Source: an uncultured Kineosporia sp. (GTDB taxonomy: Bacteria > Actinomycetota > Actinomycetes > Actinomycetales > Kineosporiaceae). From it: a DNA stretch of 18,946 bases. A model generated the notes under the pieces. The model was not told the origin of the DNA. It was given only the letters and a program-made list of their open reading frames with translations, and did not search any database. Both the position numbers and the translations under genes were made by a program. The stretch lies in the NCBI GenBank assembly GCA_937859855.1, contig CALMAR010000472.1, forward strand, positions 5,702 to 24,647, in the 5' to 3' direction. Below are positions 1-18,251 of this stretch, in pieces (positions within the stretch are counted from its first letter, which is position 1; the number at the start of each line of letters is the position of its first letter).

Positions 1-1828
1 GGCCGCCCGCGGCCAGCACCAGCATCGGGCCCAGATGCGGATCGCGGGTCATCCCGATCGAAAGCTCAGGCCCCGGTTCAGCGGCCGAGCAGATCAGCAC
101 GGCCGGGCCCAGCCGGGCGGAGAGGTCCTGGTACGCCGACCGCAGCTGAGCCTCCTCGCCGATGCCCAGCAGCACTCCGCTTGCCTCGCTCTTGTGCTCG
201 ATGCCGGGCTGATCGGTCTTCAGCACCACCGGATAACCCAGAGCCGCCGCCGCTTTCACCGCCTGATCCAGATCCCTGGCGGGGAGCACCGAGCTGGTCG
301 GCACACCGTAATCCCGCAACAGCTGAAAGGATTCGGCTCCGTCCAGCGGGACGCCGCAGCTCAGCCGGGTCCGCCACCGGGCCCGGCGCCCCGGCTGCGC
401 CGATTCGGGCCCGGAGCCGGGCGACCGAAGGCTCTGCTGCAGCTGGAGCAGGTTGCGCAGCGCGATCAGCCCGCTGCGGGTGCCCTCCAGCACGGCTACT
501 CCGTTGCGGCGCAGCCGGGCGGCCGCCTCCTGGTCGATCGCCGAGGGAAGCCCCGTCAGCACCGCGATCGGTCCGGCGCCGTGGCCGGCCAGCTCGGTCG
601 CGGCCAGCACAGCGTCGGGGTAGGCGGTGTCCCCGTCGTACTCGGGCACCAGATCGACCGCCAGCACGGTGGCGCCGGTATCTGGATCGCCGGCCATCGC
701 CACCAGGCACCGGGTGAACAGCTCCCGGGTGCCCGCGCCGGTGCCCCAGACGTCCAGCGGGTTCTCGGCGGTCAGCCCCTCGTCCAGCACGGCCCGCAGC
801 GATTCCTTGGTCGCCGAACTGATCCGCGCGAACCGGACGCCCAGCCGATCGGCCAGATCAGCGGTCAGCGCCCGCTCGGCCCCCGAGTCGTGCACGAGCG
901 CAATCCCTTGTGGCGCGGCGGTTCCAGAACCAGCCCGGGGCCGCCGGCGGCGTCCCAGCGCGACCAGTTCGAGGGTATCGGTCAGTTCGGCCAGGTCGGT
1001 CACCGGCAACGCGCCGGTGTCCTCGCACAGCGCCTCCCACATCGCACCGTCCCCGGCCAGCGCACCGGAATGGGCCTTGACCAGGCGCGATCCGGCTGCT
1101 GAACCACCCACCGGCAGCAGGATCACCGGCACGTCCAGTTCGGCGGCCCGGCGCAACTGCAGGCGCAATTGCGCCGCGTCCCGGACGGTCTCCAGCACCA
1201 GGGCGATCACCGCATCGCCGGGGCGCTGATCCAGCGCGTACCCCAGGTACTGGGCCGCGGTGGTAACCAGTTCCTGGCCCGACGACACGGCCAGTGAATA
1301 GCCGATCGCCCGCCGGGTCCGCAGCATCGCCGAGAACACCGATCCGGAATGGGTGATCAGGGTGACCGGGCCGGCCGGAAGCGGATCCCGCTCGAGGTAG
1401 CCGACGGCGCGCAGGCCGGTCGCCACATTGACGAAGCCCATGCATCCCCCGCCGCACAGCGCCATTCCCGCCTCGGCGGCGATCTCCGCCAGCCGTTCGC
1501 GCAGTCCGGGCGCGGGCACACTGCCGAATACGACCGCCGAGCGGGCGCCGATCCCGGCAGCGTCCAGCAGTTGCTGCTCGACCGCGCGATCGCCCACCCC
1601 GAGCAGGACCAGGTCGGGCGCTTCGCCCAGCTCAGCCAGGGACGCCGCGCAGGCCCGGCCCTCGATCCGCGGATAGCGGGGGTTGACCGGATGCACCGTG
1701 GCCGGTCCTCGCAGTGCCTCGATCACCATCCGATGGCCGAAGCTGCCCGGCCGCGGGCTGGCGCCGACCACGGCGACCGAGGCGGCGTCCAGCATCGCCG
1801 TCACCGGGTCACCGGCCGGGAGGTCCAC
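1..1828 (-). CDS. NDP-forming acyl-CoA synthetase (acetate--CoA ligase family, fused alpha/beta), 3' end outside window
   Basis: This enzyme family activates a carboxylic acid to its CoA thioester with ATP or GTP, releasing NDP and phosphate. About 609 residues are visible. An N-terminal CoA-binding Rossmann domain carries SVAVVGASPRPGSFG near residues 17-31. Succinyl-CoA-ligase-like domains follow, with LITHSGSVFSAML near 157-169. KAHSGALAG (His about 253) matches the loop that carries the phosphohistidine in this family. An ATP-grasp domain starts near residue 500 (GYPVVLKTDQPGIEHKSEASG, about 531-551) and is cut by the left edge. The first possible start, GTG at 1840, overlaps the upstream TGA in a GTGA arrangement. 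I chose GTG 1828 because GTGAGG lies 6 bases before it; GTG 1804 and ATG 1795 remain possible. It is coupled to the FAD oxidoreductase upstream, so it probably takes the acid made by that pathway. The substrate is unknown. Confidence 0.88.
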   Translation of the reverse strand, partial: MDLPAGDPVTAMLDAASVAVVGASPRPGSFGHRMVIEALRGPATVHPVNPRYPRIEGRACAASLAELGEAPDLVLLGVGDRAVEQQLLDAAGIGARSAVVFGSVPAPGLRERLAEIAAEAGMALCGGGCMGFVNVATGLRAVGYLERDPLPAGPVTLITHSGSVFSAMLRTRRAIGYSLAVSSGQELVTTAAQYLGYALDQRPGDAVIALVLETVRDAAQLRLQLRRAAELDVPVILLPVGGSAAGSRLVKAHSGALAGDGAMWEALCEDTGALPVTDLAELTDTLELVALGRRRRPRAGSGTAAPQGIALVHDSGAERALTADLADRLGVRFARISSATKESLRAVLDEGLTAENPLDVWGTGAGTRELFTRCLVAMAGDPDTGATVLAVDLVPEYDGDTAYPDAVLAATELAGHGAGPIAVLTGLPSAIDQEAAARLRRNGVAVLEGTRSGLIALRNLLQLQQSLRSPGSGPESAQPGRRARWRTRLSCGVPLDGAESFQLLRDYGVPTSSVLPARDLDQAVKAAAALGYPVVLKTDQPGIEHKSEASGVLLGIGEEAQLRSAYQDLSARLGPAVLICSAAEPGPELSIGMTRDPHLGPMLVLAAGG

Positions 1829-1836
1829 CGCCGACC

Positions 1837-3474
1837 TCACCCGCGACTGCGGACCAGCCGGCCGGCGCTCCGGCGATTGTCCGCGATCGCCGCCCGGGCC
1901 GCCTGCCAGCCGGGAATGCCGCAGACGCCGCCACCGGCGTGGGTGGCCGAACTGCCGTAGTACAGGCCGGAGATCGGCGTCCGGTAGTCGGCGTAGCCAG
2001 GAGCGGGCCGCAGGTGGAACAGCTGCTCCAGCGACAGCTCACCGTGGAAGATGTTGCCGCCGATCAGCCCGTACTCGGTCTCCATCTGGTGCGGCCCGAC
2101 CACGTCCCGGTGCAGGATCGAGCCCTTGAATCCGGGGGCCACCTCGTCGTAGAGGTCGATCAGGCGGTCGGCGTAGGCATCGAGTTCTCCGGTGTGCGGC
2201 TCGTTCACCCAGTCGGCCGGGACCCACTGGGTGAACAGCGAGAAGATGTGCGTGCCATCGGGATTCAGGGTGCGATCCAGAGTGGTCGGGATCACCCCAT
2301 CGCTGAACGGGAACTGGGCGGGCCGGCCCTCGCGGGCGTCGCTGAACGCCCGCTCGATGTACTCCATGCTGGGGGCCATCTCCACCGAGCCGGTCAGGTG
2401 CTCGGGGATGTCGGAGTCGTTCGGGTCGGCGGTGAAACTCGGCAGCTCAGCCAGGGCCAGATTGATCTTCACCACGCCGCTGCGGGTCTTCCAGTGTTCG
2501 ATGTCCGCGACGAAGTCGCTGGGTAGTTCCTGACGGGGAATCTGTTCCAGGAAAGCAGTTTTCGGATGCAACGTGGTCACTACGGTGGCCGCCCGCAGTT
2601 CCTCACCCGATTGCAGGACCACACCCTGGACCCGGCCGTTGCTGACCAGCAGCCGATCAACCGGGGTGTCGCAGCGGATCTGCGCGCCGAAACTTCGCGC
2701 CGACGCGGCGATCGCGGCTGATACCGCGCCCATCCCGCCTTCCGGGTAGCCCCAGCTGCCGAGCTGACCGTCCCCGACGTCGCCGATGGAGTGGTGGGCC
2801 ATCACATAGGCGGTCCCCGGCTCGAACGGCCCGGCCCAGGTACCGATCACGCCGTTGACCGCCAGCGCGGCCTTGATCTGCGGAGATTCGAACCAGTCAT
2901 CGAGCAGGTCGGCGATGCTCATGGTGAGCAGCCGGGTCACGTCCGCGGTGGTGCGGACGTTCAGCCCGCGCTGGCTCCAGGCCAGCTTGGCCAGCTCGAG
3001 CAGGTCGGCGGGCCGCTTGGAGCCGATATTGGGCGGCACCCGGGTCAGCATCGGGCCGAGCACGCCGGCCAGGCCCTCCAGCCAGGCGTTCCAGCGCGGC
3101 CAGGCGTCTGCATCGCGTTTGGACCAGCGGGCGATCTGGTCATGGGTCCGGGCCGGGTCGTCCTCGTAGATGGTCAGCGACCCGCCCTCGGGAAACGCCT
3201 GGTAGTACGGGCCCATTGGGTGCACCACGTAGCCGTGCCGCTCCAGGTTCAGGTCGCGCACGATGGTCGGCGGCATCAGGCTCATCACGTAGGACAGCCG
3301 GGTGACCCGCAGCTGCGGTGCGTCGTCCCACGGCGCTTCGGTGGTCGCCGCTCCCCCGGGCTGACGCCGGGATTCCAGCACCACCGTGCGCGCCCCGGCC
3401 CGGGCCAGGTACGCGGCCGCGACCAGCCCGTTGTGCCCTCCACCGACGACAATCGCGTCGTAGCTGCCCGGCAT
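1837..3474 (-). CDS. NAD(P)/FAD-dependent oxidoreductase, PYROXD2/phytoene-desaturase-like (copy 1)
   Basis: The 545-residue flavoprotein belongs to the CrtI/PYROXD2 type of FAD amine-oxidase-fold proteins. The N-terminal dinucleotide-binding motif is YDAIVVGGGHNGLVAAAYLA (residues 5-24), with the ribose-binding Glu at 34 in VVLESRRQPGGA. A second FAD-contacting segment at the C-terminus reads GLYYGSSATHAGGGVCGIPG. The middle contains GVIGTWAGPFEPGTA, a block also found in the second copy at 11523-13133. ATG 3474 is preceded by GGAAAGG at good spacing. It is the first gene of the minus-strand unit driven from the 3475-3615 control region and overlaps the acyl-CoA synthetase by a few bases or nearly so. 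Members of this family oxidise C-C or C-N bonds, but bacterial copies are mostly uncharacterised, so the reaction here is unknown. An oxidative step between the Rieske enzyme and the CoA ligase is inference. Confidence 0.9.
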   Translation of the reverse strand: MPGSYDAIVVGGGHNGLVAAAYLARAGARTVVLESRRQPGGAATTEAPWDDAPQLRVTRLSYVMSLMPPTIVRDLNLERHGYVVHPMGPYYQAFPEGGSLTIYEDDPARTHDQIARWSKRDADAWPRWNAWLEGLAGVLGPMLTRVPPNIGSKRPADLLELAKLAWSQRGLNVRTTADVTRLLTMSIADLLDDWFESPQIKAALAVNGVIGTWAGPFEPGTAYVMAHHSIGDVGDGQLGSWGYPEGGMGAVSAAIAASARSFGAQIRCDTPVDRLLVSNGRVQGVVLQSGEELRAATVVTTLHPKTAFLEQIPRQELPSDFVADIEHWKTRSGVVKINLALAELPSFTADPNDSDIPEHLTGSVEMAPSMEYIERAFSDAREGRPAQFPFSDGVIPTTLDRTLNPDGTHIFSLFTQWVPADWVNEPHTGELDAYADRLIDLYDEVAPGFKGSILHRDVVGPHQMETEYGLIGGNIFHGELSLEQLFHLRPAPGYADYRTPISGLYYGSSATHAGGGVCGIPGWQAARAAIADNRRSAGRLVRSRG

Positions 3475-3506: not shown

Positions 3507-3522
3507 GACTGACTGTTCAATC
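3507..3522. promoter_or_regulatory. Operator A: predicted TetR-family site
   Basis: GACTGACTGTTCAATC is an imperfect palindrome in the divergent region between the FAD oxidoreductase and the TetR gene. It matches operator B in 13 of 16 positions and operator C in 14 of 16. The position implies control of the oxidoreductase unit and autoregulation of the regulator. Binding by this particular TetR protein is inferred from adjacency. Confidence 0.7.
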
Positions 3523-3539
3523 TAAGCCGGTGATAGAAT
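3509..3539 (+). promoter_or_regulatory. Candidate promoter of the TetR-family regulator
   Basis: The -10 TAGAAT (3534-3539) differs from TATAAT at one base. The best -35 is CTGACT (3509-3514), with a long 19-base spacer. The -35 lies inside operator A, consistent with autorepression. The leader to ATG 3616 would be about 70 bases. The long spacer makes this weaker than the opposing promoter. Confidence 0.4.
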
Positions 3540-3547
3540 TCCGGCAA
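3519..3547 (-). promoter_or_regulatory. Candidate promoter of the FAD oxidoreductase / acyl-CoA synthetase unit
   Basis: On the minus strand a -35 TTGCCG (3542-3547) and a -10 TAGATT (3519-3524) are separated by exactly 17 bases. Each hexamer matches four of six consensus positions. The -10 overlaps the inverted repeat at 3507-3522, so a bound repressor would block polymerase. The predicted leader is about 37 bases. The promoter upstream of the aminotransferase (7093-7121) has the same geometry relative to its repeat, which strengthens both calls. Confidence 0.55.
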
Positions 3548-3615
3548 GGGTCGAGCAGCGGCACCTCCACGACATTCGCCGGATCCGCCCGGCGATCGAA
3601 CAAGGCGGTACAGGT

Positions 3616-4335
3616 ATGGCTGAGGTGGCACCGCCGACCCAGCAGAATGAACGACGCCGACTCCAGATCCTTACTGCGGCAGCGGAACTCATCGTCGAGA
3701 ACGGCATCTCCGAGGCCCGGATCGCTGACGTGGCCAAGCGGGCCGAGGTCAGTTCGGCGCTGGTGATCTATTACTTCGGCACCCGGGATCGGCTGCTGGT
3801 CGATGCCCTGCGTTTCTCCGAGCAGAACTTCTATGACGCGGCCGAGAAGATGCTGGCCACCGTCCGGCCGATCCGGGAGCGGCTCTCGCTGCTGGTCCGG
3901 GCCACCTGCGTACCCCAGGCGGACGGCGAGATCCCCGGCGCCTGGGGTCTGTGGTTCGACCTGTGGGCTCAGGCCTTCCGGCATCCCGAGGTCGCCCAGG
4001 ATCGGATCGACCTGGACAACCGGTGGCGCTCGATGATCACCGGCGTAGTCGAAGCCGGGATCAGGGACGGTGAGGCCAGCTGCGCCGATCCGCACCGCTT
4101 CGCGCTCACCTTCGCCTGCCTGCTGGACGGGCTCTCCATCCAGGTCGCACTGGAGGATCCGGAGATCGACCCCGAGCTGGCGTGCGAGATCGCGATGGAG
4201 GATGCCGAGCGCGAACTCAGCCTGGCCCCGGTGCCCGCTTCCGCACGGACCGGCCGTCGTCCGTCCCGGCGATCGGGCAACTCAGCTGGCTCCGTCAGCT
4301 CACCATCGAAACAGGCTGCACCGCAGACCGTTTGA
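3616..4335 (+). CDS. TetR/AcrR-family transcriptional regulator, BetI-like
   Basis: The 239-residue protein has an N-terminal helix-turn-helix (about residues 15-62) with ARIADVAKRAEVSSALVIYY, the usual TetR recognition-helix pattern. The ligand-binding half contains WGLWFDLWAQAFRHPEV, typical of the BetI-type C-terminal domain found in regulators of amine and choline-type pathways. The last 25-30 residues are a basic, Ser/Pro-rich tail beyond the usual fold. ATG 3616 has AAGGCGG seven bases upstream. It is divergent from the FAD oxidoreductase, with operator A between them. Matching operators at 7081 and 10348 suggest it represses the whole catabolic cluster until a ligand, perhaps the transported substrate or an acyl-CoA, binds. 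Its 3' end overlaps the convergent ABC ATPase gene by 41 bases. The family is clear; target and ligand are inferred. Confidence 0.9.
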   Translation: MAEVAPPTQQNERRRLQILTAAAELIVENGISEARIADVAKRAEVSSALVIYYFGTRDRLLVDALRFSEQNFYDAAEKMLATVRPIRERLSLLVRATCVPQADGEIPGAWGLWFDLWAQAFRHPEVAQDRIDLDNRWRSMITGVVEAGIRDGEASCADPHRFALTFACLLDGLSIQVALEDPEIDPELACEIAMEDAERELSLAPVPASARTGRRPSRRSGNSAGSVSSPSKQAAPQTV

Positions 4336-5467
4336 GAACGCGGACGGCATCTGGAGCGCAGGAGCAGACCACTGCGTCACCCGGCCTCAAGTCCACCGAG
4401 GACGGCCCGTGGTGGTTGGGCACCTCGACGGTGAGCGGCGCCTCACCGTCGTCGGTGTCGACGTCCACCAGCACCTGGGTGTTCGAACCCAGATACACCA
4501 CATCGCGGACGGTGCCCCGCATCTGATTGCTGCCGCTGGACCCGCGGCTGGACGGCGATTCCACCGCATCGTGGCGGAGCATCACGATCCGCTCGGGCCG
4601 GATCACGATCGCGGCGGGCCCCGGATCCAGCGAGGAGTCCAGCATCGCCTCGACCGGGCCGCCCAGCGCCCGGCACCGGGCCTCGCCAGTGGGGCTGGAC
4701 GAGAGCAGTTCGGCGTCGAAGATGTTGGCCGAACCCAGGAAGCCGGCCACATACGTGGTGGCCGGGCAGGAGTAGATCTCCTGCGGCGCGCCGACCTGCT
4801 CGATCCGCCCGCCGGCCAGCACCGCGATCCGGTCGCTCATCGTCAGTGCCTCCTCCTGGTCATGGGTCACGTAGACGAACGTGATCCCGACCTCCCGCTG
4901 CAACGCACGCAGCTCCAGTTGAAGCTGACGGCGAAGCTGGGCGTCCAGCGCACCCAGCGGCTCGTCCAGCAGCAGCACCTTGGGGTTCTGCACCAGGGCC
5001 GGGGCCAGAGCCACCCGCTGCTGCTGGCCGCCGGACAACTGACCGGGCCTGCGCTTGGCGTAACTGCCCATCCGGGTCAGCTCCAGCGCCGAGCCGACCC
5101 GGCGGCTGATCTCAGCTTTGCTGGCCTTCTGGTAGCTCAGCCCGAAGCCAACATTCTCGGCCACCGACAGATGCGGGAACAGGGCATAGTTCTGAAAGAC
5201 CGTGTTCACCGGCCGCTGGTGTGGCGGGTCCTGCGCCACATCCCGCCCGTCCAGCAGGATCCGCCCGGCATCCGGCTGTTCGAAACCAGCAATCATCCTC
5301 AGCGTGGTGGTCTTGCCGCAGCCCGAGGCCCCGAGCAGGGAGAAGAACTCACCGCCGGCGATGTCCAGGTCGATGCCGGTGACCGCAGGCACCCCGTCGA
5401 AGGCCTTGGCCAGATCGTTCAGCTCGATCTGGCCGCCCTTTGCCGTCACCGATGCGTCATCCTTCAC
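4295..5467 (-). CDS. ABC transporter ATP-binding protein, PotA/spermidine-putrescine type
   Basis: This 390-residue cytoplasmic ATPase powers the importer encoded on the opposite strand at 7182-10293. Walker A is GASGCGKT (residues 46-53), the Q-loop is at Gln92, the signature LSGGQ at 144-148, Walker B VLLLDEP at 164-170, and the H-loop His at 202. The C-terminal part is a TOBE-type domain (RPERIVML onward), as in PotA, FbpC and related subunits. Oddly, residue 156 just after the signature is Pro (QQRVALAPALV), where the family nearly always has Arg. The GTG start at 5467 has GAGG directly abutting it, so the in-frame GTG at 5449, with AAGGA about 10 bases upstream, is a real alternative. 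The gene follows the aminotransferase by 48 bases and is probably cotranscribed. The PotA-like fold suggests an organic cation or amine but does not prove it. Confidence 0.92.
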   Translation of the reverse strand: MKDDASVTAKGGQIELNDLAKAFDGVPAVTGIDLDIAGGEFFSLLGASGCGKTTTLRMIAGFEQPDAGRILLDGRDVAQDPPHQRPVNTVFQNYALFPHLSVAENVGFGLSYQKASKAEISRRVGSALELTRMGSYAKRRPGQLSGGQQQRVALAPALVQNPKVLLLDEPLGALDAQLRRQLQLELRALQREVGITFVYVTHDQEEALTMSDRIAVLAGGRIEQVGAPQEIYSCPATTYVAGFLGSANIFDAELLSSSPTGEARCRALGGPVEAMLDSSLDPGPAAIVIRPERIVMLRHDAVESPSSRGSSGSNQMRGTVRDVVYLGSNTQVLVDVDTDDGEAPLTVEVPNHHGPSSVDLRPGDAVVCSCAPDAVRVLKRSAVQPVSMVS

Positions 5468-5515
5468 CCTCGCTCTGAGCAGGCTGTCCGCCGATGGTTC
5501 TGTTCGCCCAGCGGT

Positions 5516-7030
5516 TCACTGTGCCGTCTGAATCACCCGATCCACCAGGGTGGCGAAGTTAGCAGTCAATCGCTCAATATCACCCGGCTGATGCTGGACC
5601 GAGATCAGCCACTGCTCGACCTTGCCCCACGGCGGCAGGAACACCCCACCGTTGTGCTGGATCAGCCAATGCGCCTGACCCAGCCGATCATCGATGGTGA
5701 GGAAGTCGCGGTACTCCCTGACCGGCCCGCGGGTGAAAGTGACGCAACCCTTGGCCCCGGCCGTGACCACCTGCCATTCGGCGCCGGCGCGGGCGATGGT
5801 CGCCTCCAGCGACGTCCGCAGCTGAGCGGCCAGCCGGTCCAGGTGGGCGTATCCGTCGTCGTTCAGCACCTCGCCCAGGGTGGCCCGGGCGGCGGCCATC
5901 GCCAGCGGGTTGCCGTTGAAGGTTCCGACCTGCTCGTAGGTGCCGTCGGCGATCGCGGACATCACCGACGTGGTGCCGCCGATGGCCGCCACCGAGATGC
6001 CGCCGCCCAGCGCCTTGGCCAGGCAGACCAGATCAGGGACGACCCCGGAACTGGCCGTGACGCCACCGGGCCCGGTGGTGAAACCGGTCTTGACCTCGTC
6101 GAAGGTGAGCAGGGCCCCGGCCGCGTGCAGGCGCTCGCGCAGGCCGGCCAGATAGCCGGGCTCCGGCTTGATGATCCCGGCGTTCATCATGATCGGCTCG
6201 AGGATCATCCCGGCGACCCGGTCCGGATATTGGGCCAGCATCCGGTCGACGGCGTCCAGGTCATTGAACGGGACCACCAGCACCAGGTCACGGATGGCCG
6301 ACGGTATCCCCGAGTTGCCCGGCACCCGGGCCGGATGATCGCGGGGGCCGATCTCGTCCGCCTCGGGCAGCACCGAGACCTGGACCGAGTCGTGGTGGCC
6401 GTGATAGCAGCCCTCCACTTTGATGATCAGATCCCGGCCGGTGACCGCGCGCATCAGGTGCACCGCGTCCATGGTTGCCTCGGTGCCCGAGTTGGCGAAC
6501 CGCCACAGCGGCAGGCCGAAGCGGCGGCCCAGCTCGGTGGCGACCCAGATCGCATCCTGCGTCGGTTGCGCGAAGTGGGTACCGCGGCGGACCCGCTCAC
6601 TGACCGCGGCCACGATGGCCGGGTGAGCGTGCCCGGCGATGGACGCGCCGTAGCCGCCGTGCATGTCGACGTACTCGGTGCCGTCAACGTCGTACAGCTT
6701 CGATCCGGCGCCGTGACTCAGCCAGACCGCCTGCGGCAGCGCGATCTGCCAGTTGGAGGTCGCCCCTCCGGCCAGAACGGCCCCGGCCTCGCGGATCAGC
6801 TCGGCACTGCGCGGCTGCCGGGCCAGGAAGATGCGCTCCTGCTCCTCGATCAGTTGCTCGACCGGGTCCGCACTGGGGAGTGGACCGGCCCCCGGCTGAA
6901 CCCCGCGGCCCTTCGCCGCCCCGGTCGCAGGGTCGATTGCTGGGCCGGCTGCTGGGCCGATCGAAGGGCCCTGATCCGAACCGGGCGCCCGGGCTGGCTC
7001 AGTCGCGGCGTCCTGAGTGATCGAAGCCAT
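5516..7030 (-). CDS. Class III PLP-dependent aminotransferase, glutamate-1-semialdehyde aminotransferase-like
   Basis: The 504-residue protein is a fold-type I PLP enzyme of the class III group, which moves amino groups between amines or amino acids and keto acids or aldehydes. Visible landmarks are SGTEATMDA (PLP phosphate contact, about 181-189), CYHGHHDS (about 208-215), the PLP-pyridine Asp in TFDEVKTGF (about 311) and the Schiff-base Lys in CLAKALGGGIS (about 339). The arrangement resembles glutamate-1-semialdehyde aminomutase. It sits in a catabolic cluster rather than with heme genes, so a catabolic transaminase is more likely. ATG 7030 has GGAGG nine bases upstream. The TTG at 7039 would leave no spacing to that site and is rejected. 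Residues about 10-55 are a Pro/Ala/Gly-rich, probably disordered extension not typical of the family. It is the first gene of the unit that continues into the ABC ATPase. Confidence 0.9.
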   Translation of the reverse strand: MASITQDAATEPARAPGSDQGPSIGPAAGPAIDPATGAAKGRGVQPGAGPLPSADPVEQLIEEQERIFLARQPRSAELIREAGAVLAGGATSNWQIALPQAVWLSHGAGSKLYDVDGTEYVDMHGGYGASIAGHAHPAIVAAVSERVRRGTHFAQPTQDAIWVATELGRRFGLPLWRFANSGTEATMDAVHLMRAVTGRDLIIKVEGCYHGHHDSVQVSVLPEADEIGPRDHPARVPGNSGIPSAIRDLVLVVPFNDLDAVDRMLAQYPDRVAGMILEPIMMNAGIIKPEPGYLAGLRERLHAAGALLTFDEVKTGFTTGPGGVTASSGVVPDLVCLAKALGGGISVAAIGGTTSVMSAIADGTYEQVGTFNGNPLAMAAARATLGEVLNDDGYAHLDRLAAQLRTSLEATIARAGAEWQVVTAGAKGCVTFTRGPVREYRDFLTIDDRLGQAHWLIQHNGGVFLPPWGKVEQWLISVQHQPGDIERLTANFATLVDRVIQTAQ

Positions 7031-7074
7031 CTGCGCCAACCTCCATGCTGGCGCACTAAAGGCACCAAAATCGT

Positions 7075-7080
7075 TACATT
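7075..7080 (+). promoter_or_regulatory. Candidate -10 element for the transporter unit
   Basis: TACATT directly abuts operator B on the plus strand, in the same geometry as TATCCT against operator C. No convincing -35 is visible at 16-19 bases upstream. TACCCT at 7111-7116 is another possible -10, so the start of transcription is unresolved. Confidence 0.3.
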
Positions 7081-7096
7081 GACTGAGTATTCAGTC
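7081..7096. promoter_or_regulatory. Operator B: predicted TetR-family site, near-perfect palindrome
   Basis: GACTGAGTATTCAGTC is palindromic at seven of eight base pairs. It lies between the divergent aminotransferase and solute-binding protein genes and would control both. It is the most symmetrical of the three copies in the window and probably the closest to the ideal site. Confidence 0.72.
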
Positions 7097-7121
7097 TATG
7101 TCAGAGACGCTACCCTCACAA
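7093..7121 (-). promoter_or_regulatory. Candidate promoter of the aminotransferase / ABC ATPase unit
   Basis: On the minus strand a -35 TTGTGA (7116-7121) and a -10 TAGACT (7093-7098) are separated by 17 bases. The -10 runs into operator B, just as TAGATT runs into operator A at 3519-3524. The predicted leader to ATG 7030 is about 55 bases. Confidence 0.55.
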
Positions 7122-7181
7122 CGCACACCCGAAGCTGGTGCCACAATCGCACCAGTCGCCTCGTGAGCCTGAGGGAGACCG

Positions 7182-8435
7182 ATGCCTCCGCGTAGCTTCG
7201 ATCACGGCGGGCCCAGCCGCCGGCAGTTCCTGACCAGGGCAGGACTGGTGGCGCTCGGCGGCCCAGCACTGGTCGCTGCCTGCACCCGCCAGTCCGGCGG
7301 CGGCACCACCAGTACCCAGAAGGGCACGCAGCCACTCGAGCTGGCCTCGCCGGCCAACCCCGTCAAGTGGCCGATCAATCCGGGCAACGAGCCGATCAAG
7401 GACGGCTTGACGCCGGAGAAGGGCGCCACCCTGCAGGTCTACAACTACGCCGACTACGTCGATCGCGGCGTCGTGACGGCTTTCGAGAAGAAGTACGCCT
7501 GCAAGGTTTCGATCTCCACCTTCAACGACATAGATGAGGCGCTGACCAAGATCCGGCAGGGATCGGTGCCCTACGACGTCTGGCTCGGCTCGGGTTACGA
7601 CATCACCTCCCGGCTGGTGACCACGTCGCTGATCCGGCCGCTGAACCACAGCTACATTCCGAACATCAGCAACGTCTGGCCATACTTCACCAACCCCTGG
7701 TACGACCAGGGCTGGCAATACACCGTGCCGTTCACCGTGTACAGCACCGGAATCGGCTGGCGCACGGACAAGATCAAGACCGACATCCCGGCGCTGGAGA
7801 ACCCTTACAACACACTGTGGGACGCGCAGTACCGGGGCCAGACCGCCGTCCTGGACGACTACCGGTCCGCCATCGAGATGTGCTTGTTGCGGTCCGGCAT
7901 CACCGACGTGAACACGGCCAAGGCGGCTGACCTGGACAAGGCCTCGGCCGCTCTGACCGAGTTGACCAAGAACGTGAAGCCCAGGGTCACGATCAACATG
8001 TACGACGACCTGCCCGCCGGGGCGTACGGCCAGGCGGAGATGTGGTCCGGAGATGTGGTCAACGCCGCCGCCAACGGCGCCGCCAAGCCGGAGCTGTTCC
8101 GCTACTGGTTTCCGCCGGACGGCAAAGGCATGGTCGACAATGACGTGATCGTGATGCCCGCCAGTGGGAAGAACCCGGTGCTGGCCCACCTGTTCCTGAA
8201 CCACATGCTCGATTCCAGCTCGGCCACCGCCAACTTCACCTTCACCGGCTACCAGCCGCCTCAGGTGACACTGGTTCCGGACACGCTGGTGAGTAAGGGC
8301 ATCATCCCGGCCAACCTGGCCAGCGTGGTGGTCAAGGAGACCGATCTCAAGAACGGTTACCCGGCGCTGGAGCTGAGTACCGAAGCCAACAGCGCCTGGC
8401 ACAGCATCTGGCTGGCCTTCAAGGCCGGGAACTGA
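7182..8435 (+). CDS. ABC transporter substrate-binding lipoprotein, PotD-like, Tat-exported
   Basis: The 417-residue extracytoplasmic receptor starts with a twin-arginine signal (SRRQFLTRAG, residues 12-21), a short hydrophobic stretch and the lipobox LVAAC (Cys34), so it should be exported folded and anchored by lipid. The mature part has the class of PotD-like binding proteins for polyamines and related organic cations: LQVYNYADYVDRGVVTAFEK near the N-terminus, VPYDVWLGSGYDITSRL, and a late segment that resembles the hinge and lobe-closing region. ATG 7182 is preceded by GAGGGAG at good spacing. It heads the unit with the two permeases 18 and 16 bases apart, and the ATPase is divergently encoded at 4295-5467. 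The ligand cannot be read from sequence; the enzymes around it suggest an amine or amino compound. Confidence 0.92.
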   Translation: MPPRSFDHGGPSRRQFLTRAGLVALGGPALVAACTRQSGGGTTSTQKGTQPLELASPANPVKWPINPGNEPIKDGLTPEKGATLQVYNYADYVDRGVVTAFEKKYACKVSISTFNDIDEALTKIRQGSVPYDVWLGSGYDITSRLVTTSLIRPLNHSYIPNISNVWPYFTNPWYDQGWQYTVPFTVYSTGIGWRTDKIKTDIPALENPYNTLWDAQYRGQTAVLDDYRSAIEMCLLRSGITDVNTAKAADLDKASAALTELTKNVKPRVTINMYDDLPAGAYGQAEMWSGDVVNAAANGAAKPELFRYWFPPDGKGMVDNDVIVMPASGKNPVLAHLFLNHMLDSSSATANFTFTGYQPPQVTLVPDTLVSKGIIPANLASVVVKETDLKNGYPALELSTEANSAWHSIWLAFKAGN

Positions 8436-8453
8436 CCGTCCGGTGATGACCCG

Positions 8454-9404
8454 GTGGTGCTGACCCAGGAGCGTCCGGAGGCGCCCGCGTCGTCATCACC
8501 CACCAGCAGCCGAAAGCCATCGGCCGGCCCCTGGCGGCTGCTGGCACTGCCGGGAATCGCCTGGCTGTGCATCTTCTTCGTGGTTCCGCTGTATCTGGTG
8601 CTGGCCATCGTCTTCGGACGGGTGGATCCGGTCTTCCGCACGCCCTTGCCGGTATGGAACCCGTTGCAGTGGGATTTCACCGAGTTCGGCCACGTGATCC
8701 GCCAGACCGTCGGCCCGGGAGCGATCTTCGGTGCCGCGCTGATCCGGACCCTGGTGTTCGTGCTGCTGGCCAGTGCGCTGTGCGTGCTGATCGCCTTCCC
8801 GGTGGCCTACTACGTGGCCCGGCTGGCCGGGCGCTGGCGCGGAATGCTGCTCGGCCTGCTGATCGCCCCCTTCTGGATCAGCTACATGATGCGGATGCTG
8901 GCCTGGGTCAACCTGTTGCGGGACGATGGCCTGGTCAACCGGGTGCTCAGCCTGGGCGGCCTGCTCGACGTCCATCTGAACTGGCTGAACGGCAACGCGC
9001 TGGTGGTGGTGCTGGGGCTGGTCTACGGGTATGTGCCATACATGATCCTGCCGCTGTACGCCGGGCTGGACCGGCTGCCCCAATCGGTGCTCGAAGCCGC
9101 GCGGGACCTGGGCGCCACCCGGTCCTCGGCGTTCTGGCGGGTCACCCTGCCGATGGGCCGGCCCACCATCGTCGCCAGTGTGCTGCTGACCTGCCTGCCC
9201 ATGCTGGGCGACTACTTCACCAACGACCTGCTCTCGGCCTCTCCCACCACCTCGATGGTTGGCAACCTGATCAACAACACCGTGCTGATCCCCGGCCAGA
9301 CCAGCGCCGCCGGGGCGTATGTGCTGATCGTGCTGGTGATTTCGCTGATCCCGATGCTGTACTACGTGCGCAGCGTGGCTCGCGGCGACGAGGCGCGAAC
9401 ATGA
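8454..9404 (+). CDS. ABC transporter permease, PotB-like
   Basis: The 316-residue inner-membrane subunit has six likely transmembrane segments, at about residues 29-54, 94-124, 130-152, 182-203, 237-257 and 286-305. The cytoplasmic EAA loop that docks on the ATPase is EAARDLGATRSSAFWRVTLP (214-233), followed by PLP-type residues as in PotB and related type I importers. The cytoplasmic N-terminus is about 28 residues long and Ser/Pro-rich. The start is GTG 8454 or GTG 8457, since an in-frame stop (the TGA of the binding protein) excludes anything further upstream. The ribosome site is weak, so translation may depend on reinitiation from the upstream gene. Confidence 0.93.
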   Translation: MVLTQERPEAPASSSPTSSRKPSAGPWRLLALPGIAWLCIFFVVPLYLVLAIVFGRVDPVFRTPLPVWNPLQWDFTEFGHVIRQTVGPGAIFGAALIRTLVFVLLASALCVLIAFPVAYYVARLAGRWRGMLLGLLIAPFWISYMMRMLAWVNLLRDDGLVNRVLSLGGLLDVHLNWLNGNALVVVLGLVYGYVPYMILPLYAGLDRLPQSVLEAARDLGATRSSAFWRVTLPMGRPTIVASVLLTCLPMLGDYFTNDLLSASPTTSMVGNLINNTVLIPGQTSAAGAYVLIVLVISLIPMLYYVRSVARGDEART

Positions 9405-9424
9405 GCCGCGTGATCGCCTCATGA
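9401..9424 (+). other. Seven-codon open frame bridging the two permease genes
   Basis: ATG 9401 overlaps the upstream permease stop as ATGA, encodes MSRVIAS, and ends in a TGA that itself overlaps the ATG of the next permease as ATGA. It may be a relay for translational coupling, or the remnant of an older start of the downstream permease that is now one base out of frame. No function is shown. Confidence 0.3.
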
Positions 9425-10293
9425 TCCGCTGGTGGAACAACCCCTGGCGCAAGCCCCGCATGCTGGCCACGGTGACCGTCGTCTACCTGCTCTGGTCCCT
9501 GGTTCCGGTCCTGATCGCGGTGCTCTTCTCGTTCAACAGCGCCCGGTCCCGGACCTCCTTCCAGGGCTTCTCGATGCGCTGGTACTGGGGCGACGCCACC
9601 CGATCGGTATGGCATGACGCCTCGTTGCATGCGGCGCTGCTGCAGACGGTCAAGCTGGGCCTGATCACCACGGTGATCACGGTTCCGCTGGGGGTGGCAT
9701 TCGCGATCGGCATGGATCGCTGGCGCGGCAGGCTGCCGGAGACGGCCAATGTGGTGATGCTGCTGTCCTTCGTGATCCCCGAGACGCTGCTCGCGGTGGC
9801 CCTGCTGTTCCTGGTCACCACCATTGTGCTGCCCTTCTCGCTCGGTACCGCCGCCCAGGTCGCGGGCCTGGTCACCTTTCAGATCTCTTATCCGGCGGTG
9901 ATCGTGCGGGCCCGGCTGGCGACCATCGGCAAGCACTACGAAGAAGCAGCCATGGATCTGGGCGCTTCTCCGATGGGGGCGCTGCGCCGGGTGATTCTGC
10001 CGATGCTGACTCCGGCCATCCTGGCCAGCACGGTGCTGGTGTTCGCCGACGTGATCGACGATTTCGTGCTGGTGCGCTACCTGTCCGGGTCGGCGTCCAC
10101 CGAACCGGTGTCGGTCAAGATCTACAACACCGCCCGGGCCGCCCCGACTCCGGCGATCAATGCGATGGCCACCCTGTTGCTGCTCGCCTCAATGATCGCG
10201 GTGCTGGCCGGGTTCCTGATCTTCCGGTGGATGACCCGCGGCGACAGCACGCAGGACGACCGCGGAATCGGCGCCTTCGCCGGAGAACTGTGA
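9421..10293 (+). CDS. ABC transporter permease, PotC-like
   Basis: The 290-residue partner permease has about six membrane segments, at roughly residues 15-38, 72-98, 109-137, 142-163, 197-217 and 244-265. Its EAA loop is EAAMDLGASPMGALRRVILP (175-194). With the PotB-like protein it should form the heterodimeric channel for the lipoprotein and the PotA-like ATPase. ATG 9421 has no good ribosome site and is bridged to the previous gene by the tiny frame at 9401-9424. The gene ends 60 bases before the Rieske gene. That gap holds a weak CCTGG/CCAGG stem (10301-10315) and then a promoter and operator, so the Rieske unit is probably transcribed separately or by both routes. Confidence 0.93.
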   Translation: MIRWWNNPWRKPRMLATVTVVYLLWSLVPVLIAVLFSFNSARSRTSFQGFSMRWYWGDATRSVWHDASLHAALLQTVKLGLITTVITVPLGVAFAIGMDRWRGRLPETANVVMLLSFVIPETLLAVALLFLVTTIVLPFSLGTAAQVAGLVTFQISYPAVIVRARLATIGKHYEEAAMDLGASPMGALRRVILPMLTPAILASTVLVFADVIDDFVLVRYLSGSASTEPVSVKIYNTARAAPTPAINAMATLLLLASMIAVLAGFLIFRWMTRGDSTQDDRGIGAFAGEL

Positions 10294-10317
10294 GCCCGTT
10301 CCTGGTCTGGCCAGGTA

Positions 10318-10347
10318 TGGACCCGGCGGGTTGTTCCGTTTTATCCT
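10318..10347 (+). promoter_or_regulatory. Candidate promoter of the Rieske oxygenase unit (leaderless)
   Basis: The -10 TATCCT (10342-10347) and a -35 TGGACC (10318-10323) are separated by 18 bases. ATG 10354 lies six bases after the -10, where transcription should begin, and no ribosome site precedes it. Such leaderless starts are common in actinomycetes. Operator C begins directly after the -10. Confidence 0.5.
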
Positions 10348-10363
10348 GACTGTATGTTCAATC
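10348..10363. promoter_or_regulatory. Operator C: predicted TetR-family site over the Rieske start codon
   Basis: GACTGTATGTTCAATC matches operator A in 14 of 16 positions, and 13 columns are invariant across all three copies. It covers the predicted transcription start and the ATG at 10354. The first codons of the Rieske gene are therefore constrained by the operator if that ATG is used. Confidence 0.66.
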
Positions 10364-11514
10364 AGCTCCGGGGAATGCCCGCTCCGCTGGACACCGCTGG
10401 CCTGGCCGCCGCCCTGGCCCCGTTCGGCAACTCCCGCATGCTGCCCCCAGCCGCCTACACCGATCCGGCCGTCTTCGGCTGGGAACAGGCCAACATCCTG
10501 TCCGGCTGGGTCTGCGCCGGGCATGCGGGTGAGCTGGCTGAGCCGGGGTCGCAGCGGGCCATCGACACCGGAGCCGGCAGCGTGCTGCTGACCCGGGACG
10601 AGGACGGCGGCCTGCATGCCTTCGCCAACACCTGCCGGCACCGCGGCCACGAACTGGTGCCCTGCGGAGCGAGCCGGCAGGCGAACAGCATCATCTGCCC
10701 CTATCACTCCTGGACCTACAAGCTCGACGGTTCGCTGCGGCACGCGCCCGGGTTCCGCGGGGCCGCGGGTTTCGAGGCGGGCCAGTTCGGCCTGGTGCCG
10801 GTGCCGGCGGTGGAGTGGCAGGGTTATCTGTTCGCCGATCCGTCCGGCCAGGCCGGCGATTTCGCCCATCACCTGCCGGGGCTGGACGACGTGGTGGGCC
10901 CCTACCGCCCGCAGGATCTGGTGGTGGTGGCCAGGCACTCCTACGAGCTGGCCACCAACTGGAAGGTGATCGTCGAGAACTATCAGGAGTGTTACCACTG
11001 CGCCACCATCCATCCGGAGCTGAGCCGGATCAGCCCGCCGAAGAGCGGGGAGAACCTGGAGGGCGCGGGGGAATGGATGGCCGGCTGGATGGACCTGATC
11101 CCGCAGGCGCAGACCATGTCGCTGGACGGCCACAGCGACGGCAGGCCGATCATCGGCCTGTCCGAGCACGAACTGCGCACGGTGATGTATGTGGTCGCCT
11201 ACCCGAACCTGCTGATCAGCCTGCACCCGGACTACGTGATGACGCACGTGCTGACGCCGCTGGCGGCGGGCCGTACCCACGTCGAGTGCGCCTGGGCCTT
11301 TCCGTCCGATGTGGCCTCGGCCGAAGGCTTCGACCCCAGCTACGCGGTCGACTTCTGGGACCTGACCAACCGGCAGGACTGGGCCGCTTGCGAATCCGTG
11401 CAGCGCGGGCTCGCCTCACCGCACGCGGTGGCCGGGCCGATGGCGCCCGAGGAGGACGGCGTGTACCAGTTCGTCACCCGGGTCGCTCAGGCCTATCTCG
11501 GATCGGGAAGGTGA
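10354..11514 (+). CDS. Rieske non-heme iron oxygenase, alpha subunit (aromatic-ring-hydroxylating / quaternary-amine oxygenase family)
   Basis: The 386-residue oxygenase component activates O2 at a mononuclear iron, fed by electrons through a Rieske cluster. The cluster ligands are Cys94, His96, Cys115 and His118 (TCRHRGHE and ICPYHSWTY). The catalytic iron ligands are His215 and His220 in ENYQECYHCATIHP, and probably Asp342 in TNRQDWAACESVQRGL. The ECYHC pattern and the length place it near the GbcA/CntA-like group, which attacks betaine- or carnitine-type compounds, although ring hydroxylases share the fold. ATG 10354 fits a leaderless transcript; ATG 10375 in the same frame is an alternative, with GGGG lying too close to it. 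No ferredoxin or reductase partner is in the window. An FAD oxidoreductase follows after 8 bases. Confidence 0.92.
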   Translation: MFNQLRGMPAPLDTAGLAAALAPFGNSRMLPPAAYTDPAVFGWEQANILSGWVCAGHAGELAEPGSQRAIDTGAGSVLLTRDEDGGLHAFANTCRHRGHELVPCGASRQANSIICPYHSWTYKLDGSLRHAPGFRGAAGFEAGQFGLVPVPAVEWQGYLFADPSGQAGDFAHHLPGLDDVVGPYRPQDLVVVARHSYELATNWKVIVENYQECYHCATIHPELSRISPPKSGENLEGAGEWMAGWMDLIPQAQTMSLDGHSDGRPIIGLSEHELRTVMYVVAYPNLLISLHPDYVMTHVLTPLAAGRTHVECAWAFPSDVASAEGFDPSYAVDFWDLTNRQDWAACESVQRGLASPHAVAGPMAPEEDGVYQFVTRVAQAYLGSGR

Positions 11515-11522
11515 GCGCAGCC

Positions 11523-13133
11523 ATGAGCTTCGACGTCTCGGCAATGAACTCGATCGCCGCCCGGCTGGGCAAGGTCGGCCTGCCCGCGCCCATCAGCGAA
11601 CTGGCCGCGCGAACGTGGGACGTGATCGTGGTTGGCGGCGGGCACAACGGGCTGACCTGTGCGGCCTACCTGGCCCGGGCCGGGCAGCGGGTGCTGGTCC
11701 TGGAAGCCCGCGAAAGACTGGGCGGGGCCTGCACTCTGGACCAGCCGTTCGACGACGAGAACTACGTGATCAGCCCCTGCGCCTACGTGGTCGGGTTGCT
11801 CGACGACGACGTCATCCGGGACCTTGATCTGCGCCACCGGGGCCTCGAGGTGTACGTCGCCGATCCGCAGCTGTGGGTGCCATTCGAGGATGGGACGGCG
11901 TTCGCGCAGTGGATGAGCCACGAGCGCACGGTGCGCGGATTACAGGAGCTGGGGCTGGCGCAGAAGGAGATTGACGGCTATCTGGCCTACGAGGACTTCT
12001 TCGACCAGATGCGGCTGCGGCTGCGCAAGGGCACCCGGGACACCTGGGTGGGCGATTCGCCATCCCGGGCCGAACTGGAGGAACTGCTCGGCGACCAGAT
12101 GATGATCGACGCGCTGTTCGAGGCATCGATCTCCGACGTCCTGGACCACTTCGTCACCGATCAGCGGCTCAAGGACGCGCTTTTCGGCCAAGGCGTGATC
12201 GGAACCTTCGCCGGGCCACGGGATCCGGGTACAGCATCGGTGAAACTGATGCACTTCCAGGGTGATCTGGAGGGCGAAGGCCCGGTCTGGGGCTACGTGA
12301 AGGGCGGCATGGGCATGATCAGTTTCGCGATCGCCGACGCCGCCGAGGAGGCGGGGGCGGTGCTGGCGGCCGGCGTTCCGGTAGGTGAGATCGTGCCCGG
12401 CGAAGGAGTCCGGCTGGACGACGGCACCTTCATCGCCGCGCCGGTGGTGGTCAGCAACGCCGATCCCAAGCGAGTGCTGAACATGGTTGCGGGACAAGCG
12501 ATACCGGCGTCCTACCGGCAGCGGCTGGAGTCGTGGGACATCCGCTCGCCGGTGGTCAAGTTCAACGCGGCGCTGAACCGGCTGCCGTCCTGGACGGCCG
12601 CCCCGGGAGAGACCTTCATGGCCCTGGGCACGGTGGACGTGACCAGCGGACTGGACGCCGCCCAGGCTGCGTTCGAACGCTGCGCGGCAGGCGAGCCCGC
12701 CGTCGGCTTCGGTGAGATCTACGTGCAGACCCTGCACGACCCGACACCGGCGCCGGCCGGGAAGCACCTGATGAGCGTGTTCGGCCAGTACGCGTCCTAC
12801 GACCTGAACGGTGGCTGGGATGCCCGGCGTCCCGAGGTGGCCCGTCAGTTCATCGACCTGATCGGGCGCTATGCGCCGGACTTCGAGGACTGCCTGGAGT
12901 CCTACGAGGTGCTGGGGGCGCCCGACATCGAAGCCAAGGTCGGGCTGACCGGCGGCCACATCTTCCAGGGCGAAGTCCGCCCGGATCAGATGTGGGAGCA
13001 CCGGCTGAGCCCGCGCACCCCCATACCAGGCGTCTATCTCTGCGGAGCGGCCACCCATCCAGCCGGCAGTGTGATCGCGACCAACGGCCGCAACGCCGCC
13101 AGCGCCGTGCTGGCCGATCTCAAGCAGCTGTAG
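11523..13133 (+). CDS. NAD(P)/FAD-dependent oxidoreductase, PYROXD2/phytoene-desaturase-like (copy 2)
   Basis: The 536-residue flavoprotein is a paralogue of the one at 1837-3474. The dinucleotide motif is WDVIVVGGGHNGLTCAAYLA (residues 32-51), with the ribose-binding Glu at 61 in VLVLEARERLGGAC. It shares the block GVIGTFAGPRDPGTA and the C-terminal GVYLCGAATHPAGSV, but lacks the GGGVxGxPG seen in copy 1 and has SVIATNGRNAAS instead. An N-terminal extension of about 30 residues precedes the fold; MNS at codon 8 is another possible start. ATG 11523 follows the Rieske stop by 8 bases, with GGGAAGG about 11 bases upstream, so the two are cotranscribed. It may oxidise the Rieske product or serve an adjacent step. 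A direct reductase role for the Rieske enzyme is unlikely from its family but untested. Confidence 0.9.
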   Translation: MSFDVSAMNSIAARLGKVGLPAPISELAARTWDVIVVGGGHNGLTCAAYLARAGQRVLVLEARERLGGACTLDQPFDDENYVISPCAYVVGLLDDDVIRDLDLRHRGLEVYVADPQLWVPFEDGTAFAQWMSHERTVRGLQELGLAQKEIDGYLAYEDFFDQMRLRLRKGTRDTWVGDSPSRAELEELLGDQMMIDALFEASISDVLDHFVTDQRLKDALFGQGVIGTFAGPRDPGTASVKLMHFQGDLEGEGPVWGYVKGGMGMISFAIADAAEEAGAVLAAGVPVGEIVPGEGVRLDDGTFIAAPVVVSNADPKRVLNMVAGQAIPASYRQRLESWDIRSPVVKFNAALNRLPSWTAAPGETFMALGTVDVTSGLDAAQAAFERCAAGEPAVGFGEIYVQTLHDPTPAPAGKHLMSVFGQYASYDLNGGWDARRPEVARQFIDLIGRYAPDFEDCLESYEVLGAPDIEAKVGLTGGHIFQGEVRPDQMWEHRLSPRTPIPGVYLCGAATHPAGSVIATNGRNAASAVLADLKQL

Positions 13134-17942: not shown

Positions 17943-18251
17943 CTAGGCTACTGAAGGATCACTCCGATCCTGCTCCAGCCAGCTGGTCCCCGGCGGTGTG
18001 GTGTCGCGGAAGCGCTGATAGTCGGCCATCACCAGCCACGGCTCGATCGAGGCCCCGACCGCTCGGACTGAACCGTCCTCGCGATCTATCACCAGGTTGA
18101 CTCCGCCGAAAGTCAGTCCCAGCTGCCGGGGCAGCACGTACACCATCCACCCGCCGGCAAATTCCTCGGCCTCAAGCCGTACATGGTCAGTGCTCCCGTC
18201 GTGAGCGCTGATCACCCTGGCCGCTGCAGCCAATGCAGCCTCGGTGTCCAT
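17943..18251 (-). CDS. Hypothetical protein, small (102 aa)
   Basis: I do not recognise this 102-residue protein with confidence. It is acidic, with no signal peptide or membrane segment. Its central segment, WMVYVLPRQLGLTFGGVNLV followed by IDREDGSVRAVGAS, suggests a short beta-sheet. This is loosely reminiscent of the YrhB/Imm35-type fold seen in small immunity-like proteins, but that is a weak impression. ATG 18251 has GAGGA six bases upstream, which supports a genuine gene. It heads the minus-strand run leading into the HAD phosphatase, thyA and folA. Confidence 0.7.
   Translation of the reverse strand: MDTEAALAAAARVISAHDGSTDHVRLEAEEFAGGWMVYVLPRQLGLTFGGVNLVIDREDGSVRAVGASIEPWLVMADYQRFRDTTPPGTSWLEQDRSDPSVA

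Follow-up and report, generated by a model that had tools for sequence, protein, structure and literature searches.

Local transcriptional switches of the TetR family are a common type of control. In mycobacteria, most TetR genes lie divergent to a neighbor (PMC4482099), and the bkaR, kstR and kstR2 regulons are governed by local repressors of nearby catabolic genes that read palindromic motifs (PMC4482099, PMC3920632, PMC3068626). BetI, a choline-sensing TetR-family repressor, is a further point of comparison. Here we describe a locus from an uncultured Kineosporia sp. (contig CALMAR010000472.1), in which a stretch of 18,946 nucleotides, referred to as the window, carries a gene cluster with a BetI-type TetR gene and three similar 16-base sites. 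The three sites are very probably the operators of this TetR protein, acting as a repressor, and would make the cluster a local, autoregulated regulon. The original prediction for this DNA had explained the co-control of divergent units by the same TetR protein, and our sequence comparisons support that interpretation. The sites and the regulator are as follows.

3507..3522, plus strand: site 1, GACTGACTGTTCAATC, predicted operator in the divergent control region of tetR and a flavin adenine dinucleotide (FAD)-dependent oxidoreductase gene
7081..7096, plus strand: site 2, GACTGAGTATTCAGTC, predicted operator in the divergent control region of the aminotransferase and binding-protein genes
10348..10363, plus strand: site 3, GACTGTATGTTCAATC, predicted operator containing the Rieske oxygenase ATG at 10354
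3616..4335, plus strand: TetR-family regulator with a BetI-type C-terminal domain (PF00440 and PF13977)

The window TetR has a TetR_N helix-turn-helix domain (PF00440, 40.6 bits, cut-off 24) and shares the C-terminal domain PF13977 with BetI, but falls below the BetI equivalog cut-offs (TIGR03384, 78.9 against 201.3; NF001978, 74.9 against 118). It may work like BetI and is not classed as BetI. Neither a choline dehydrogenase nor a betaine aldehyde dehydrogenase is present among the cluster genes examined. A 22-base stretch is printed for the BetI gate promoter, a synthetic promoter (PMC7058928). The best match to it in the window is site 1 with its flanks (16/22), a value reached by none of 200 order-1 Markov sequences, and in 70 of 71 loci the best match is one of the sites described here, although the sites are alike and these cases are not independent. 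The printed stretch is presumably the BetI operator. The regulon resembles those of bkaR, kstR and kstR2 in kind and differs from them in its genes. The motif table of PMC4482099 names Rv-numbered mycobacterial regulators, and its main text mentions neither polyamine, Rieske nor aminotransferase. No paper on this regulon was found in open-licence full texts, and no printed match to five variants of the site was found.

The three 16-mers are the sole exact matches to GACTGNNTNTTCANTC in the window, in agreement with the earlier statement that they occur only at the three control regions of the cluster that had been inspected. No full match was found in 200 shuffled windows (mean 0.00), a post hoc result in that GACTGNNTNTTCANTC was derived from the three sites themselves; the independent test is conservation elsewhere. 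The coordinates of the 16-mers were given correctly in the original prediction, but the number of invariant positions is 12 rather than 13, with positions 6, 7, 9 and 14 varying. Likewise, the term inverted repeat fits site 2 well, where 14 of 16 bases are self-complementary, but sites 1 and 3 less well, with 10 of 16 each. The motif GACTGA-N4-TCAGTC fits site 2 in full, site 1 with one base off and site 3 with two. When two mismatches are allowed, the symmetric form GACTGANNNNTCAGTC has four matches in the window compared to 0.69 expected, the fourth being a weak two-mismatch match at 17949-17964, distant from the cluster. A search for a structured RNA or tRNA as the source of the repeats found none.

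Related clusters provide the independent test. A profile of 30 TetR proteins, the window's included, retrieved 74 loci (L001-L074), of which the named ones are mostly from Mycobacterium/Mycolicibacterium and Nocardioides; L073 and L074 are spurious TetR hits without cluster genes. Sites were counted upstream of the cluster genes in these loci, leaving out the window, on both strands and with at most one mismatch, using a looser consensus for the Rieske site. A gene was kept if its alignment began within 40 residues of the query start, passed an identity floor and had enough upstream DNA. The motif recurs at matching places: a counterpart of site 1 is found before the TetR gene in 70 of 72 loci, of site 2 upstream of the gene for the binding protein in 61 of 62, and of site 3 at the Rieske start in 48 of 57 (at most one mismatch to the site-3 consensus). 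A fourth site lies beyond the window, in the divergent control region of an acyl-CoA dehydrogenase and a DAO-type oxidase (for example L005:4700-4715), and is seen before the oxidase in 36/36 loci and before the dehydrogenase in 37/42. In the genome of the window this site would lie to the left of base 1 or elsewhere. Control genes without a predicted site rarely have a match (PotB 0/60, PotA 2/65, ACS 3/67), and 0.4-3.1% of random windows from the same loci, real sites not excluded, contain one. One of the records, L035, is titled Bifidobacterium breve, but its cluster resembles the Mycobacterium loci and the title may be wrong.

The sites were also grouped into 71 s1, 63 s2 (from 62 loci), 49 s3 and 37 s4 sequences, with the window in the first three groups. 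The information content is 1.83-1.93 bits per base within the site compared to 0.17-0.77 in flanks 26-45 bases away, and conservation drops beyond the site and the promoter elements. Departures from perfect symmetry are site-specific and largely conserved among loci. The right half is TCAATC at site 1 in most loci and TCAGTC at sites 2 and 4, and the halves of site 3 are GACTGT...TCAAAC or TCAATC.

All three sites are placed at candidate promoters, whose elements are listed below.

3519..3547, minus strand: candidate promoter of the FAD-oxidoreductase unit, -35 TTGCCG (3547-3542), N17, -10 TAGATT (3524-3519) overlapping site 1
3531..3539, plus strand: candidate extended -10 of tetR, TGATAGAAT, immediately downstream of site 1
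7093..7121, minus strand: candidate promoter of the aminotransferase/potA unit, -35 TTGTGA (7121-7116), N17, -10 TAGACT (7098-7093) overlapping site 2
7079..7084, plus strand: conserved TTGACT at the left boundary of site 2, a candidate -35 for the binding-protein operon
10318..10347, plus strand: candidate Rieske promoter, -35 TGGACC (10318-10323), N18, -10 TATCCT (10342-10347) abutting site 3

The two minus-strand promoters proposed earlier, with 17-base spacers and a -10 that enters the site (TTGCCG-N17-TAGATT at site 1 and TTGTGA-N17-TAGACT at site 2), hold up well. The -10 at site 1 is TAGATT in 60 of 71 loci and TAGACT in 9, and that at site 2 is TAGACT in 60 of the 63 grouped s2 sites. 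On the plus strand, TGNTANNNT stands at the offset of the candidate extended -10 of tetR in 62/71 loci, and we infer that TGATAGAAT is a tetR promoter element. At site 2, TTGACT is kept in 58/63 s2 sites and is a plausible -35 for the binding-protein operon; a NANNGT hexamer follows 17 bases beyond it in 51/63, the window counterpart being only CAGAGA. It had also been proposed that two plus-strand -10 candidates abut the sites, and in the window both do, TATCCT at site 3 and TACATT at site 2, but the relatives back TATCCT only. In 45 of the 49 grouped loci (window included) site 3 is directly preceded by a TANNNT hexamer, which is one base away in the other four, and in 34/49 the abutting hexamer is accompanied by a TGGACC-like -35 at a distance of 15-19 bases. 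TACATT is not kept in relatives, which gives no support to a conserved role as the -10 of site 2. The organism of the window may nevertheless use it, since CAGAGA, the counterpart of the conserved -10, is without the final T.

The placement of the sites also bears on the direction of control. Binding by TetR with an activating or dual role at some of the sites is improbable: some TetR-family proteins do activate, for example LuxR of Vibrio harveyi (PMC2628434), but here the sites overlap -10 elements or adjoin them, as is usual for repression, and do not lie upstream of the -35.

Whole-genome scans show that in relatives the motif is not scattered at random. In 19 TetR-bearing genomes a loose pattern has 89 matches compared to 14 for its reversed control, and by our own reading 70 of the 89 belong to the cluster, either no more than 16 kb from site 1 or beside cluster genes that have moved, one palindrome in G011 being counted twice. 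Detached fourth sites were checked on the DNA for G001, G011, G016 and G019, and the others were placed by their distance to site 1; the scan of G019 has three sites, none of them at a DAO gene. A separate sequence, GACTGCTCGTTCAGGC, recurs in dozens of family genomes, perhaps as a conserved coding stretch, and inflates the loose pattern. The sites travel with their genes when the cluster is split. In the rearranged cluster of G019 (L107, L108) the TetR/oxidoreductase pair, the aminotransferase/binding-protein pair and the Rieske gene each retain their own site, and in G011 (L106) and G016 (L109) the DAO gene is on a separate contig, still with its site. In the relatives, then, the sites are confined to the neighborhood of the cluster and common to several units, as in a local regulon. 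Two of the outcomes named beforehand as refuting the original prediction, random genomic scatter and absence from related clusters, were thus examined in relatives, and both results favor the prediction. The motif is also linked to the presence of the regulator. Among 201 genomes from the family of G001 and 198 from that of G002, 11 of the 399 have the TetR at E <= 1e-40, and the strict form GACTGANYRTTCARTC is found in 9 of these 11 compared to 6 of the 388 without it (Fisher p 4e-13, uncorrected for relatedness).

Several observations weigh against assigning the sites to this TetR. The loci are related by descent and their counts are not independent. G001 and G002 were chosen as TetR-bearing centers, and without them the co-occurrence is 7/9; the TetR search was limited to about 15 scored candidates in each genome. 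The strict motif is absent from two of the 11 TetR-bearing genomes, G047 and G274. In G047 (L105) the TetR survives as a remnant, two pieces in different frames; there is no site, no further gene of the cluster is found within 20 kb, and the cluster itself has apparently been lost. The cluster of G274 is of another kind, like that of L062, with a distant TetR and a one-mismatch site between two other genes. The Rieske site is missed in 9 of 57 loci (L052, L061, L064-L067, L069, L070 and L072), mostly from more distant clades. L064 and L069 have a one-mismatch site 160-190 bases upstream of the Rieske gene, and in L061 a site-3-like sequence, read by eye, is located in the Rieske leader in front of a later ATG; in the six other loci no upstream or leader site was noted. 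Sites 2 and 3 match the BetI gate stretch at 14 of 22 positions, no better than chance maxima. Finally, the six genomes that hold a strict match without this TetR include four in which the match is beside another TetR gene. In G230 (L113), G167 (L114) and G132 (L115) the palindrome immediately precedes a TetR gene of the TetR_C_25 type, with an ATP-binding cassette (ABC) transporter ATPase gene as neighbor, and in G079 (L116) it is within the 5' part of another TetR_N-bearing frame. The match in G393 (L112) precedes an amino-acid permease gene, with no TetR among the frames listed nearby, and that in G182 (L117) is inside a coding frame. The motif is not exclusive to this regulator and may represent a class that several TetR proteins read. 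The assignment to the window TetR therefore rests on linkage and co-occurrence.

These matches give some room for the explanation that the sites are bound by another regulator encoded elsewhere, with TetR merely a member of that regulon. In four genomes that lack this TetR, similar palindromes adjoin TetR genes of other kinds, and more than one protein can probably read GACTGA-N4-TCAGTC, but the strict motif is found in so few same-family genomes without this TetR, and the site stands so regularly before the TetR gene itself, that we consider this explanation quite improbable.

The recognition-helix regions of the proteins concerned can be compared directly. In the TetR_C_25-type proteins of L113, L114 and L115 the region reads ALI-x-HHFGSKD, and the GACTGA-N4-TCAGTC copies lie at L113:6208-6223, L114:6121-6163 (two copies) and L115:4074-4089. 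Among the related clusters, L068 and L072 have the variant operators GACTGGCC (GACTGG type), and their TetR has Q or E after YYF, a position occupied by G in most others and by S in L060. Covariation of recognition helix and motif is possible, but two cases are too few and we did not retain it as an explanation.

Site 3 contains the start codon of the Rieske gene. In 48 of 49 grouped loci, counting the window, the ATG makes up positions 7-9 of the site. In all 48 loci in this register the six bases preceding the ATG are GACTGT (44) or GACTGC (4), and codon 3 is AAA (44) or AAT (4), compared to only 111 AAA/AAT among the 775 later AAN codons of the same Rieske genes. These counts bear on a further explanation, that conservation of site 3 reflects the N-terminal protein sequence (Met-Phe-Asn/Lys) and not an operator. 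Ten of the 16 bases are coding, but the six non-coding bases are held nearly constant, codon 3 invariably takes its less-used A/T-ending form, and L061 has its site-3-like sequence in front of the later ATG. Protein-coding constraint as the whole cause was rejected on the upstream bases and the codon-3 bias, and we regard an explanation of this kind as very improbable.

Since a TANNNT hexamer abuts site 3 or is one base off, the Rieske messenger RNA (mRNA) should start at or beside the ATG. Judged from this spacing, it is probably leaderless. Leaderless mRNAs are common in mycobacteria (PMC4633059). The Rieske gene resembles such genes in the placement of its promoter -10, which would set the mRNA start at the ATG, and differs from them in that the start codon is also within a predicted repressor site and the mRNA start is a predicted one.

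That the sites are chance repeats in a 19-kb window is extremely improbable: the pattern was picked after the sites had been seen and, with three mismatches allowed, has 14 matches in the window compared to 7.68 expected, but conservation in more than 60 related clusters rules chance out.

The other genes of the cluster, with an acyl-coenzyme A (CoA) ligase of the nucleoside diphosphate (NDP)-forming type at the left end, are listed below.

2..1840, minus strand: NDP-forming acyl-CoA ligase, downstream of the oxidoreductase gene and cut by the left end of the window
1837..3474, minus strand: FAD-dependent oxidoreductase of the CrtI/CrtO-like type
4295..5467, minus strand: PotA-like ABC transporter ATPase
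5516..7039, minus strand: class III aminotransferase (glutamate-1-semialdehyde / beta-amino-acid type), whose start may be TTG 7039 or ATG 7030
7182..8435, plus strand: PotD/PotF-like substrate-binding protein
8454..9404, plus strand: PotB-like permease
9421..10293, plus strand: PotC-like permease
10354..11514, plus strand: alpha subunit of a Rieske oxygenase, closest to the NCBIfam glycine betaine monooxygenase model but under its cut-off
11526..13133, plus strand: second FAD oxidoreductase of the CrtI/CrtO-like type, immediately after the Rieske gene, start chosen by us

None of the 74 loci, some of which end soon past the Rieske gene, is listed with the second FAD oxidoreductase; it does occupy this position at L107:2586-4163, in the genome of Nocardioides sp. 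SR21. To the right of the cluster are housekeeping genes (RNase J, dapA, thyA and dihydrofolate reductase). The Rieske oxygenase shows a relationship to structures of carnitine monooxygenase. The genes at the fourth site are similar to sarcosine-oxidase-like and acyl-CoA dehydrogenase families; comparison to solved structures for the substrate gave broad family matches only. Because the Rieske oxygenase resembles betaine/carnitine monooxygenases, and in view of the fourth-site gene families, our guess is that the substrate is an amine or quaternary amine degraded via a CoA ester.

In the mechanism we propose, a TetR dimer would sit on each site in the absence of ligand and obstruct RNA polymerase. 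The operators at sites 1 and 2 would lie over the minus-strand -10 and against or inside the plus-strand promoter, allowing one dimer to silence both divergent units, and at site 1 this would amount to autoregulation of TetR. At site 3 the operator would start right beside the -10 and take in the start codon of the probably leaderless Rieske mRNA. TetR dimers at the fourth site would block the divergent promoters there too. An amine-type substrate or its product, imported by the Pot-like transporter, would probably lift repression, and uptake, transamination, oxygenation and CoA activation would then be derepressed together. A more speculative extension, which we consider rather unlikely, is that the site-specific asymmetry lets one repressor free the oxidoreductase/tetR, transport and oxygenase units in a fixed order, with the start codon inside the operator shared by repressor, polymerase and initiating ribosome. 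An ordered release is unproven, because the overlapping -10 elements and the ATG already account for much of the asymmetry.

Local switches of this kind are common, and as a regulon prediction the present case is a familiar one; its unusual detail is a putative operator that contains a start codon. Because similar palindromes adjoin other TetR genes, the findings carry the caution that GACTGA-N4-TCAGTC by itself cannot name its regulator. A conserved actinobacterial regulator gains a precise predicted operator and a small predicted regulon of four sites and about a dozen genes. Four sites and one protein make the ligand and the pathway testable, and the predicted start-codon operator would offer a clean natural case for the repression of leaderless genes.

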